DNA of 21,790 bases from a virus. Under the pieces are notes generated by a model, which saw only the letters and a program-made list of their open reading frames with translations, was not told where the DNA came from and did no database searches. Made by a program: the position numbers and the translations under genes. The stretch spans positions 1 through 21,790 of the IMG/VR virus record IMGVR_UViG_3300030118_004221; one strand, given 5' to 3'. Below, piece by piece: positions 7,011 to 20,150 of this stretch; positions within the stretch are counted from its first letter, which is position 1; the number at the start of each line of letters is the position of its first letter.

Positions 7011-8568
7011 GTTTTGTAAATAAGTAATCTTCAATCACGACATGATCCATGTCTGTATTATTTAGTGCATATAGAGCATCGTCAATTGTAGATAATATAG
7101 GGTATCCACGAATATTAAACGATGTATTTAAAAGAACGTTAGTCTCTGATATCTTTCCAAACTCTGTCAACAATTCATAAAAATGTGAGTGTGATTTCTC
7201 TGTGACTGTTTGAAGTCTTGCTGTGCCATCTACGTGTGTGATAGATGGTAGTGTGTCTACCTTAACCCTAGGAGCATAACTCATATACTCCAAATTTTCA
7301 AAGTTAGGTGAATCAAAATACTTGTGTGCTTCTTCTTTCTTACAGAAAGGTGCGAAAGGTCTATACCATTCTCTAAATTTTACTTTAGAGTTTAGTATAT
7401 CTTTCATGTCAGCAATATTAGGGTCACATACAATAGAGCGATTCCCCAGAGCCCTAGGCCCAACCTCTGAATCCCCATAGACCAACCCAATAATTTTACC
7501 ATCTTTAATTAACTGTGCTATCTCTCTTTTATTTACACGAACAGCATCATATTTGTCAACATAATCTTTCAAATTGTAACGATCTAGTAACGGAAGACCT
7601 GCGTAAGTTATATCAATCTGCTTATCTGGTTTTTTGTATAAAAATAAATGTCCTAAAGAGAGACTACCATCATGAGGATTAGGTGGTATATATAATTCTC
7701 TATTATATCTACTCTTAATTTTTTCATTTACTAAAACATTTAGTGCACATCCACCAGTTACAATCAAAGGAACTTCTGTATCATACTTATCTAGAACACT
7801 AAAGAAAGCATTTTCAAATGCCTCTTGTGCTGTTGCAGCAATATCATATCCATACTGTCCTTCAAATGCCCAGTTTTCTAGAGGATTTTTCCAAGGATCA
7901 TTGACGTTTTTAAGAGGTAGATTTGTCCAGTTAGATAACTTTTCGTAGTCTCTATCAAAGAAAAACTCTTCAAACGCAGGAACAAACTCAGGTATAACTT
8001 TTCCATACCCACATAGACCCATCAGTTTTCCTGACAAGGCCAGTTGATGTCTACTTTTTTCTGCTACCTCACGAATCATAGATCCACAAAGCAAATACCC
8101 ACCACCAAAATCAGACTCAACTTTTTTTAGTAATTTAATTTTACCATTTTGTTTATCTCCAACATAGATATTAAAATGACCATCATCACCACCGCCATCA
8201 TAAGATACGATCAATGCTTTATCAAAGGGTGAAAGATAAAGAGCAGACAAGGCATGAGTTTGATGATGAGTTGCTATCGTGGTGACCTTTTCTGTATTAA
8301 ATATCTCTCTAGGATCAGTTTGAATATAACCATCTGAACAAATTAATACTGCTTCATAGTCATTCTTAATACCCCACTCTGCCTCTGCTATATTTCTACA
8401 AGATTCTAAAATATATTTTTGATACTCAGGAGAGTTATCTTCATGTAAACGAAAATATCTTTTCTTTTCAAATCTTTCTATCTCTATAGAATGATATGTA
8501 TTTGCCTCTGCATTATAAAAAGATATATTTGCATCATGTCCAGCAAAAATACTAACTAAATTTTTCAT
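6997..8568 (-). CDS. Carbamoyltransferase, NodU/CmcH/TobZ family
   Basis: A 523-residue two-domain O-carbamoyltransferase. The N-terminal ASKHA/TsaD-like domain has HHQTHA (101-106, metal and carbamoyl-adenylate site), SYDGGGDDG (122-130) and TGGCALNV (271-278). The C-terminal YrdC-like part carries GPRALGNRS (370-378), RPFAPF and the closing NTSFN block. These enzymes use carbamoyl phosphate and ATP to place a carbamoyl group on a sugar hydroxyl, as on Nod factors or tobramycin. Here the acceptor is likely a sugar of the phage-directed glycan. Length is close to the family norm and no key motif is missing. It lies between the GDP-fucose synthase gene (ATGA overlap) and a glycosyltransferase, so it is probably co-translated with both. 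Confidence 0.92.
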   Translation of the reverse strand: MKNLVSIFAGHDANISFYNAEANTYHSIEIERFEKKRYFRLHEDNSPEYQKYILESCRNIAEAEWGIKNDYEAVLICSDGYIQTDPREIFNTEKVTTIATHHQTHALSALYLSPFDKALIVSYDGGGDDGHFNIYVGDKQNGKIKLLKKVESDFGGGYLLCGSMIREVAEKSRHQLALSGKLMGLCGYGKVIPEFVPAFEEFFFDRDYEKLSNWTNLPLKNVNDPWKNPLENWAFEGQYGYDIAATAQEAFENAFFSVLDKYDTEVPLIVTGGCALNVLVNEKIKSRYNRELYIPPNPHDGSLSLGHLFLYKKPDKQIDITYAGLPLLDRYNLKDYVDKYDAVRVNKREIAQLIKDGKIIGLVYGDSEVGPRALGNRSIVCDPNIADMKDILNSKVKFREWYRPFAPFCKKEEAHKYFDSPNFENLEYMSYAPRVKVDTLPSITHVDGTARLQTVTEKSHSHFYELLTEFGKISETNVLLNTSFNIRGYPILSTIDDALYALNNTDMDHVVIEDYLFTKREVQ

Positions 8569-17813: not shown

Positions 17814-18133
17814 GTTCTTACTACAATGTCACCGTCATCATCATCATCGTCATCATCTTCCTCAAGTTTTTGTTTGAGTTCATTGATACGAGTTTGTAAA
17901 GCATCATACTCGTCAAGATCACAACTTTTAAAAGTAACACCCATGACTTCCTCTCCATCTCTAGGTGCTTCTGGATGAGGTGTGTATGCTCTCATGACAT
18001 CATTATAAGATTTAACTGGTCGTTTGTCAAACTCTACTAAAGTTGATCTCATCAGGGTAAACATGTAAGCAAACGTTGCAGCTGCTAAAGCCACAAAAAA
18101 AATCAAGTATAAAAAAATAGTAATGTCGTTCAT
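17810..18133 (-). CDS. Single-pass membrane protein with an acidic C-terminal tail
   Basis: A 107-residue protein. Residues about 5-27 (TIFLYLIFFVALAAATFAYMF) form one hydrophobic helix, followed by a basic stretch (RSTLVEFDKRPVK) that should keep the C-terminus in the cytoplasm, a proline-rich linker (TPHPEAPRDGEE) and a helical segment (DEYDALQTRINELKQKLEE) of coiled-coil type, ending in eight consecutive Asp. The Asp tract is encoded by a trinucleotide repeat at 17834-17857. Genes upstream and downstream overlap by ATGA. I do not know a function; a membrane-anchored acidic coiled coil could recruit another protein, but nothing proves this. Confidence 0.68.
   Translation of the reverse strand: MNDITIFLYLIFFVALAAATFAYMFTLMRSTLVEFDKRPVKSYNDVMRAYTPHPEAPRDGEEVMGVTFKSCDLDEYDALQTRINELKQKLEEDDDDDDDDGDIVVRT
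17834..17857 (-). repeat. Asp-codon trinucleotide repeat (eight GAT/GAC units)
   Basis: Eight consecutive Asp codons, six GAT and two GAC, lie near the 3' end of the membrane protein gene. Such a tract can change length by slippage without shifting the frame. Confidence 0.85.
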
Positions 18134-18530: not shown

Positions 18531-18785
18531 TTACCTAATCTCGAAGTCTAGTTTACGAACTTTACGTTTGCGTCTCTCCTCTTGAAATTGTAATTCTTGT
18601 GGAGAGAATAGAGATTGTTTCTTGGAAGTGTCCTTCCCAGATTTTATCATTATAACTTTAGTTAGGTCAACTGCACTAAAAGTGTCACCAGTAACAGTTA
18701 CCATGTTAGGACATCCACATGAATATGCTCTTGATGTATGGCCTGATACCTCTTTATTGCATTGTTTACATCTAACGACAATCAT
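18531..18785 (-). CDS. Small zinc-ribbon-like protein
   Basis: An 84-residue protein with two cysteine pairs, RCKQCNKE (C6, C9) and YSCGCPN (C23, C25), spaced as in small zinc ribbons. The middle ([21 protein letters not shown]) is strand-rich and the C-terminus is very basic ([16 protein letters not shown]), suggesting nucleic-acid contact. It shares ATGA with the mannose-6-phosphate isomerase gene upstream. The second pair is CxC rather than CxxC, which is unusual for a classic ribbon but still able to bind zinc. I know no assigned function; a role in transcription or DNA handling is a guess from the basic tail. Confidence 0.68.
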
Positions 18786-19153
18786 CGTTCTTCATTTAAC
18801 TCCTGTTGTGTTTTAAGTCTTCCGTATACGTCTTCTAAACGTGTTATATCATCTTCTTCCAAGTATGACCCACTTTGCACTTCAATTATTCTTAAAGGTA
18901 TTTTTCCGGGATTAGATAATCGGTGGATCGAGCCTATAGGTATATAGGTACTTTCGTTTTCAGTGAGTAGTTTTTCTTCATCACCAACTTGTACAAGAGC
19001 AGTTCCTTCAACTACCACCCAATGTTCTGCACGGTGATGATGCATTTGTAAAGAGAGTCTTTCTCCGGGTTTGACTTCAATACTTTTTACTTTATATCTT
19101 TTATCACTATCAATAACATCATACCATCCCCAAGGTCTATCTGTTTTAGTCAT
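18782..19153 (-). CDS. manA: Mannose-6-phosphate isomerase, type II cupin domain
   Basis: A 123-residue stand-alone cupin equal to the C-terminal domain of bifunctional ManC/AlgA proteins. It has RPWGWYDVI (6-14), [20 protein letters not shown] (33-52, metal ligands among H38-H40 and H44), [13 protein letters not shown] (71-83, H77), [14 protein letters not shown] (89-102) and RLEDVYGR (105-112). Type II isomerases interconvert fructose 6-phosphate and mannose 6-phosphate with a bound metal. The guanylyltransferase half is absent. I start it at ATG 19153: a GTG at 19204 is in frame but falls inside a hairpin of the leader RNA and would add 17 residues foreign to the family. With the phosphomannomutase at 20161-20865 and gmd/fcl it forms most of a GDP-fucose route. 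It is the first gene behind the structured leader. Confidence 0.88.
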
Positions 19154-19192
19154 GATGTTCTCTGAAATATTTAAGGGGGAGGTTGGGTTTCT

Positions 19193-19495
19193 GTGTTCCA
19201 ACACGCAGAGGGCATTTCTACAGTTTAGAAAATCTCTACGACCTGAGTTCTATCTGGTAGGATAGTTCTGCCATTCCTGACAGCGAGCACCACCTCTAAC
19301 TCATCACCTTAACTAGACTTATGCCAGCAAGTTTATTCAGTCACTCCCAGAGTAAACTCGTCAGTCTACTCGAAGCGGATACTTGGTACTGCCCCAAGTT
19401 CTATAGGTTGGAAACCTACCATAATACTTTTATACGATACCCGCAAGATTGGGCCTTACTCAGAGAGAAGTGGTGGTGGTCTCCCTGATGCCCAA
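19193..19495 (-). ncRNA. Large structured 5' leader, candidate manA-motif RNA (possible riboswitch)
   Basis: Between the promoter and the mannose-6-phosphate isomerase ATG lie about 340 bases without a credible gene. Written 5'-3' on the minus strand, I can fold seven elements by eye. H1: TTGGGC/GCCCAA (19490-19495 with 19449-19454) plus an inner 8-bp helix (19480-19487 with 19461-19468). H2: GCGGGT/ATCCGC (19439-19444 with 19375-19380) closing two hairpins, TAGGTT/AACCTA (19404-19418) and ACTTGG/CCAAGT (19381-19399). H3: a 9-bp hairpin at 19350-19371. H4: TGAGTT/AACTCA (19298-19303 with 19244-19249) closing three arms (19285-19296, 19268-19283, 19250-19265). H5: 7 bp (19234-19240 with 19204-19210) around TTTCTA/TAGAAA. 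H6: 19193-19204. The manA RNA motif is reported from marine bacteria and cyanophages upstream of mannose genes. Gene context and size fit; identity is inference until checked with a covariance model. Confidence 0.72.
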
Positions 19496-19499
19496 ATAT

Positions 19500-19527
19500 A
19501 TTATATACGATTTAATTTATTTGTCAA
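19500..19527 (-). promoter_or_regulatory. Consensus sigma70-type promoter of the structured leader
   Basis: On the minus strand TTGACA (19527-19522) and TATAAT (19505-19500) are perfect consensus hexamers with a 16-base spacer. The expected start point, about seven bases downstream, is near 19493, which is the base of the first RNA helix. The -35 element lies inside the last codons of the small acidic gene upstream (stop at 19517-19519). Confidence 0.8.
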
Positions 19528-19723
19528 CATCTTTATCATCTTCATAGAAAGGTTCTAATTGATCTAAAGATAATATATCTAGTTCTGGTGAAGGTTCTAT
19601 CCATTCTTGAAACTCTACGTAGATAGATTCAGCATCGAGATCTGAGATATCTTCACTGTCCATTCGAGTTAATGACCATGCTCTGGCATCAGCAACAGCT
19701 TCTTCAGTCGTTTTCATTTCCAT
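19517..19723 (-). CDS. Small acidic protein, unknown function
   Basis: From ATG 19723 the product is 68 residues, strongly acidic: MEMKTTEEAVADARAW, then MDSEDISDLDAESIYVEF and a tail rich in Glu and Asp (LEPFYEDDKDVDK). There is no membrane segment or catalytic motif. A second ATG two codons on (19717) is an alternative start; longer in-frame extensions would run inside the upstream nuclease gene in another frame and are rejected. The gene overlaps that nuclease gene by 20 bases and its 3' end contains the -35 box of the leader promoter. Highly acidic small proteins in phages are sometimes DNA mimics, but nothing specific supports that here. Confidence 0.62.
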   Translation of the reverse strand: MEMKTTEEAVADARAWSLTRMDSEDISDLDAESIYVEFQEWIEPSPELDILSLDQLEPFYEDDKDVDK

Positions 19724-20150
19724 AATAGTCTTTTCTGAAATACCTTGAGAGGATGTTGCTATTATAGTACTTTGGTGTTCCATCGTCAAGCTGTTCAGTG
19801 AGGACTTTATTTGCGAAGAGTTGCCTCGTCTCTTCGTAGTTTGTTTTGCCTTTTGTATAATGTAGTGATAAGATAGTTCGACTAAAATTTTGTCTACCAA
19901 ACTGTTTAATCTCTTCTTTAAGTTCTGGACAAGACCCATAATATTTTTTCCAATCAGATTCAGATTTTACTTTTCTTTTCTTTCCCTTGGGAGTTCTAAA
20001 CTTCCAAAAATATTTTCGTCCGATATATTCTCTCCCATTCTGGAGATTTGTAATACGGTAGACGTAACCGAAGAAATCATTAATATCGTCAGTAGTGAAA
20101 GGTTTACCCTCATATAGCCAGGGGTTTTCGTAAACTCCTCCTTCAACCAT
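19704..20150 (-). CDS. GIY-YIG-type nuclease-like protein (Seg-like)
   Basis: A 148-residue protein with a GIY-YIG-like core: FGYVYRITNLQNGREYIGRK (27-46), where G28-Y29-V30 stands for GIY and Y42-I43-G44 for YIG, followed by R45, a basic insert KGKKRKVK, KKYYGSCPELKEEIKQFG (68-85), E106/E107 in NYEETRQLF as candidate catalytic Glu and YYNSNI (128-133). This is the order of the family that includes T4 Seg homing endonucleases. An aromatic N-terminal segment (ENPWLYEGKPF) precedes it. It lies between the phosphomannomutase gene and a small acidic gene, close to nrdB, where T4-like phages often carry free-standing nucleases. Whether it is a mobile homing enzyme or a domesticated one cannot be said. 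Confidence 0.75.
   Translation of the reverse strand: MVEGGVYENPWLYEGKPFTTDDINDFFGYVYRITNLQNGREYIGRKYFWKFRTPKGKKRKVKSESDWKKYYGSCPELKEEIKQFGRQNFSRTILSLHYTKGKTNYEETRQLFANKVLTEQLDDGTPKYYNSNILSRYFRKDYYGNEND

Follow-up and report, generated by a model that had tools for sequence, protein, structure and literature searches.

What RNA occupies the gene-free leader of a viral mannose-6-phosphate isomerase gene, and what might it do there? The question is raised by a 21,790-nt stretch of viral DNA (IMG/VR record IMGVR_UViG_3300030118_004221; the whole stretch is hereafter called the window). The isomerase, a protein of 123 amino acids with a type II-kind cupin domain, is encoded on the minus strand at 18782–19153, and the name that it had received in the initial annotation was confirmed by Pfam (PF01050, MannoseP_isomer, 8.5e-55). 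The roughly 340 bases before its ATG had also been described correctly as free of genes; on the minus strand, no ORF was found between the stop of the upstream ORF at 19517 and the ATG at 19153. The proposed sigma-70-type promoter, TTGACA-N16-TATAAT (19500–19527, minus strand), matches the consensus at 12 of 12 positions, with the first base of TTGACA at 19527, a 16-nt spacer, and the end of TATAAT at 19500. The predicted transcription start (around 19493) is the first G of a 5′ hairpin, the first helix of the leader, and thus falls at the helix base where it had been placed. The same promoter sequence is present in two contigs of the same population, L002 and L003. The minus strand of the window carries three such perfect promoters (at 19527, 18030, and 17000), compared with 0.04 expected per window in dinucleotide shuffles, and those at 18030 and 17000 would provide further start points downstream of the isomerase.

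The folding energy of the leader is unremarkable (−98.9 kcal/mol, z = −1.07, with 10 of 100 shuffles equally stable). Because energy alone is not significant, the seven hairpins or multi-helix domains, including two junctions, that had been found by eye required other evidence, which was provided by the manA covariance model and by covariation of manA, a tRNA-like element, and the 5′ hairpin. The claim of structure was upheld, and the helices resolve into one hairpin, one cloverleaf, and the multi-helix fold of manA. The leader is predicted to be a composite 5′ untranslated region, in which a hairpin (19451–19493), a tRNA-Gly-like element (19374–19444), and a complete manA RNA (19172–19370), all on the minus strand, are followed by the isomerase. 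The hairpin and the tRNA-Gly-like element make up the 5′ half, the latter preceding manA by 3 nt, while manA (199 nt) makes up the 3′ half and ends 19 nt before the isomerase ATG, on the same strand and with the promoter upstream. The three elements, found here in this order, are conserved with covariation and recur elsewhere as separate modules. With its manA, the leader adds one more member to an established family; the new parts are the tRNA-like leader family and the 5′ hairpin.

In the Rfam scan, the sole hit was manA (RF01745, minus strand), matched over model positions 1–192 of 192 with 166.9 bits (E = 4.8e-45, cut-off 55.2), and no wcaG RNA, the other family that had been suggested, was found in the window. 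When the Rfam structure was transferred onto 34 divergent viral sequences, 92.4% of pair cells were standard pairs, and changes on both sides were observed in 33 of 55 pairs, compared with 18.0 in shuffles. Only 33–50% of cells were paired when the structure was slid by 1–3 columns as a control; alignment of the model's first helix is poor among these sequences (59% paired). Resting on this match and this covariation, the assignment of 19172–19370 to manA is secure. The initial annotation had taken the leader to be manA or a relative, which was right for the 3′ half (a manA RNA proper rather than a relative) and left the hairpin and the tRNA-Gly-like element of the 5′ half unrecognized.

The main text of Weinberg et al. 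(2010; PMC2864571) describes manA as a riboswitch candidate. The window agrees with that description in its full-length match, its conserved core GGGAGUGACUGAAUAAACUU, its closing GGGAG/CUCCC helix, and its setting as the 5′ leader of a mannose gene in a marine phage; it differs in that two further elements, a hairpin and one resembling a tRNA, intervene between the promoter and manA, and no tRNA-like neighbour of manA is mentioned in that main text. Occurrence of manA together with wcaG and glnA in a cyanophage is listed in the paper on S-CREM1 (PMC9964418). No paper giving manA a ligand was found in the open-access literature.

The genes that follow manA at most loci include transaldolase (talC), gp32-like, thyX, 2OG-oxygenase, DUF6561, and others, the names being recognized by reading translations, of which only some were checked against family libraries. 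Among 53 isomerase loci, most lack manA, and the two in which it immediately precedes the isomerase, L002 and L003, both belong to the population of the window. A tight link between manA and the isomerase was therefore rejected. No single pathway emerges from the neighbours of manA, and the earlier idea that the leader senses a mannose-type sugar metabolite is weakened and finds no support in this survey, because manA precedes varied genes and isomerase loci mostly do without it. A stand-alone RNA (promoter, manA, terminator) is at most a minority arrangement, with a simple terminator within 160 nt at 9 of 98 loci (0.8% in shuffles).

Some other features were observed beside manA. A second conserved hairpin, GACCUAAGAUGCAACU...AGUGGGGCAGAUGGUC, lies 8–15 nt after manA in 25 of 105 distinct manA RNAs and carries a U-rich tail in 13 of these 25 (for example, in L061, L063, L065, L080, and L112). 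In L134, manA and a terminator stand upstream of an ORF whose translation reads like glycine dehydrogenase GcvP, a possible glycine link beside the association of manA with a tRNA-Gly-like element.

The tRNA-Gly-like element of the window scores 38.5 bits (cut-off 29) in a sensitive scan of the leader with the Rfam tRNA model, whereas ARAGORN called no tRNA in the window. It has a cloverleaf with acceptor, anticodon, and T stems of 7, 5, and 5 bp, all intact, the anticodon UCC, and discriminator U; CCA is not encoded, the next bases being UCG. It was aligned without gaps with the tRNA-Gly of phage T4 and 67 other sequences. In an alignment of T4 with 68 distinct sequences, which were taken from exact T-arm matches (61 viral contigs) and D-arm/anticodon pattern matches (at least 120 stretches), 99.5% of pair cells hold a pair, and the acceptor, anticodon, and T stems covary strongly; the D-arm is invariant in this alignment by construction of the search. 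In the set selected by the T-arm, a search that left the anticodon and D-arm free, the anticodon is UCC or ACC throughout, and the same D-arm is present wherever the contig reaches. G1–C72, C2–G71, G3–C70, U73, and anticodon bases C35 and C36, which are glycine identity elements for bacterial GlyRS, are kept in 69 of 69 aligned sequences. Differences between the window and L002/L003 preserve the pairs of the anticodon stem and of the 5′ hairpin.

With regard to the elbow, the canonical G18 G19 of the D-loop and UUCRANN of the T-loop are replaced in the window by AAAAGUA and GGCAGUA, with A in place of G18 and G in place of U55, and a non-canonical elbow was found in every variant sequence compared. 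Such an elbow may impair RNase P, RNase Z, or charging. The element is a maintained structure and not a decayed tRNA. Phage tRNA-Gly(UCC), such as that of T4 (AF158101), resembles it in the gapless alignment, the anticodon, and the acceptor end, and that of Synechococcus phage Bellamy lies at the same locus behind the same hairpin. However, T4 has AAUGGUA in the D-loop and UUCGAUU in the T-loop, and the tRNA-like element is usually single and located before a protein gene rather than in a tRNA cluster.

The element was found at about 150 marine-phage loci, usually alone and mostly just before a start codon. CCA is encoded in 129 of 156 instances, a canonical tRNA lies nearby in just one, and ARAGORN calls four; since the tRNA finder mostly makes no call, the family is easily overlooked. 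The following ORF typically starts no more than a few tens of nucleotides away. Most commonly it is the gp45 sliding clamp, as judged from the annotation of that ORF in Mosig and from similar translations. Among the 88 distinct upstream regions without manA, a sigma-70-like promoter is present in 67 (11.2 expected), and in 49 the −10 hexamer ends 5–7 nt before the first base of the element, which puts the predicted transcription start on, or very near, the element itself.

An exact T-arm match was absent from 84,980 bacterial and archaeal genomes, in which the D-arm/anticodon pattern gave 13 hits; one of these is the element, on an alphaproteobacterial MAG contig (L450) that is possibly viral. 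The cultured Pelagibacter phage Mosig also carries the element, its first base at record position 7852 on the minus strand, under an annotated hypothetical protein (Mosig_000011, L177:1485-1580), which is probably not a real gene; three tRNAs were reported in the genome announcement (PMC7892664). Among open-access papers, none was found that describes the tRNA-like leader or the tRNA-cluster hairpin of marine phages.

Leaders that place a tRNA-like fold shortly ahead of a start codon have precedents, such as the thrS operator of Escherichia coli, from which the phage element differs in being a complete cloverleaf with an acceptor stem, often with CCA, and in preceding unrelated genes. The yjdF riboswitch (PMC9142559) also has a tRNA-like fold close upstream of the start codon, and the same complete cloverleaf with acceptor stem, frequently encoded CCA, and unrelated genes set the phage family apart from it.

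The association with manA is not confined to the window. In the reverse neighbourhood, 17 further contigs have manA before the tRNA-like element, directly or closely, with a gap of 3–4 nt in eight of them (e.g., L174, L330, L337, and L383) and a second hairpin in between in the others. The window, L002, and L003 have the opposite order, so that direct abutment of the two RNAs occurs both ways.

The 5′ hairpin (43 nt, 19493–19451) has the form GGGCAUC-stem-CCACCACCAC-stem-AGUAAGGCCC and matches no Rfam family. It recurs in 45 viral contigs, and its inner stem shows covariation in 6 of 8 pairs, with 98.7% of cells paired. In about 38 viral contigs, it lies 3–8 nt before tRNA-Gly(UCC) in cyanophage tRNA arrays (4 nt before it in Bellamy); it precedes tRNA-Thr in L005 and L181 and stands directly before the isomerase ATG in L004. 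A looser, loop-free pattern was matched in 72 contigs, compared with about 9 by a rough chance estimate, and these matches include other phage types with other loops. A kissing interaction, in which the loop CACCAC of the hairpin would pair with the GGUGGUG conserved in manA, was considered; the complementarity in the window extends over 10 nt (p = 0.04 against shuffles), but the proposal is unsupported because p = 0.22 in L002 and the hairpin occurs without manA in Bellamy.

Two related hairpin types were also noted. In L420, L422, L425, L428, L430, L437, and L418, a GGGCAUC...UGUGUAAGNCCC hairpin occurs upstream of a GIY-YIG endonuclease-like ORF, and its loop is complementary to a stretch just before the AUG of that ORF, over 13–14 nt in the L420 type and over 11 nt, with a different sequence, in L418 (0 of 100 shuffles as good); it is a candidate antisense switch. 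In L411, L419, L421, L432, L433, L434, and L438, the hairpin frame is embedded in a terminator-like stem, AGAGUCAA...UUGACUCUUUUUU, that separates a pair of phage genes, the stem being stable and the loop very variable.

Related phages show what else can occupy the locus. The order in the window is nrdB, a phosphomannomutase-like gene, a SegE-like gene, a small ORF, hairpin, tRNA-like element, manA, and isomerase; in Bellamy it is nrdB, an ORF, a SegE-like gene (77% identical to that of the window), a small ORF, tRNA-Arg, hairpin, and tRNA-Gly; and in P-TIM68 it is nrdB, ndhP, a gene annotated as NAD synthetase, manA, and talC. L004 has hairpin and isomerase only, and L005 has hairpin, tRNA-Thr, and isomerase. 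The RNA elements thus look like modules exchanged at one site. In addition, the SegE GIY-YIG family protein of the window (19704–20150, minus strand; Pfam 1.4e-55) belongs to PHROG 447, which is named 'NAD synthetase', as is P-TIM68 AIR93507.1; for SegE-like proteins this name is probably a misannotation.

How might such a leader work? In the reading that we favour, and to which we give about an even chance, it is a composite in which manA is cis-regulatory and the tRNA-like domain is excised by host tRNA-processing enzymes. Briefly, the strong sigma-70-type promoter would start the transcript on the small hairpin, followed by the tRNA-Gly-like cloverleaf, the complete manA 3 nt later, and then the isomerase start codon. 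Host RNase P and RNase Z would most likely cut out the tRNA-like domain, so that the isomerase mRNA would then begin with manA. Such a 5′-terminal place is taken as usual for manA, because at 92 of 98 loci a promoter directly precedes it (shuffles give 12%); nearly all 98 loci also have a gene behind it on the same strand, and from this arrangement, its own promoter before it and a same-strand gene behind, we infer a cis-acting leader. It would serve the isomerase and perhaps also the following sugar-nucleotide genes, and would probably be an aptamer, with a putative ligand that is not mannose-specific. The reading is also favoured by the kept glycine identity positions, by the abutment of manA and the tRNA-like element in both orders, and by the hairpin that immediately precedes tRNA-Gly at the same locus (nrdB, SegE-like gene, small ORF) in cyanophage arrays. 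The varied gene neighbours of manA count against the reading as a whole. Against excision stand the non-canonical elbow and the predicted start on the first base of the element in most relatives, where no 5′ cut would be needed.

These two points lead to a different, rather doubtful possibility, namely that the tRNA-like domain is not excised and stays at or near the mRNA 5′ end, where it would serve as a protective structure or, bound by glycyl-tRNA synthetase or some other tRNA-binding protein, as a regulator, in which case manA and the tRNA-like element would be two stacked cis-regulators. Retention is consistent with the usual solitary placement shortly ahead of a start codon (no canonical tRNA near 155 of 156 instances), with a −10 that ends 5–7 nt upstream of the element's first base in 49 of 88 distinct cases, and with the non-canonical elbow of every variant compared. 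On the other hand, encoded CCA in 129 of 156 instances and the kept glycine identity positions and anticodon are expected of a released, charged tRNA, and in the window the element sits behind a hairpin rather than at the 5′ end. It is improbable that the hairpin and the tRNA-like element persist as passive remnants of a tRNA array, joined by recombination to manA and the isomerase, with only manA, or nothing, acting on the gene: the locus is that of the Bellamy array and the interval between hairpin and isomerase varies (nothing in L004, tRNA-Thr in L005, tRNA-like element and manA in the window), but all stems are intact, the differences from L002/L003 keep the hairpin and anticodon-stem pairs, and the promoter is perfect and identical in the window, L002, and L003.

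The tRNA-like part of the favoured composite leader belongs to a phage family that is found mostly at the predicted very start of messenger RNAs. For marine T4-like phages as a whole, it is tentatively proposed, at somewhat less than an even chance, that a glycine-tRNA-like element specific to phages, its elbow rewired, forms the 5′ end of mRNAs, mainly that of the sliding clamp, with transcription beginning on its first base. A single promoter would then yield either a tRNA together with an mRNA or one mRNA capped by a tRNA; the window would combine this element with manA and a second RNA motif outside the Rfam models. If transcription truly begins on the first base of the element, this would be an unusual start for a phage mRNA. 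That manA directly adjoins a tRNA-Gly-like element, sometimes ahead of it and sometimes behind it, and also precedes genes with no relation to mannose provides new leads on what manA may sense or do.
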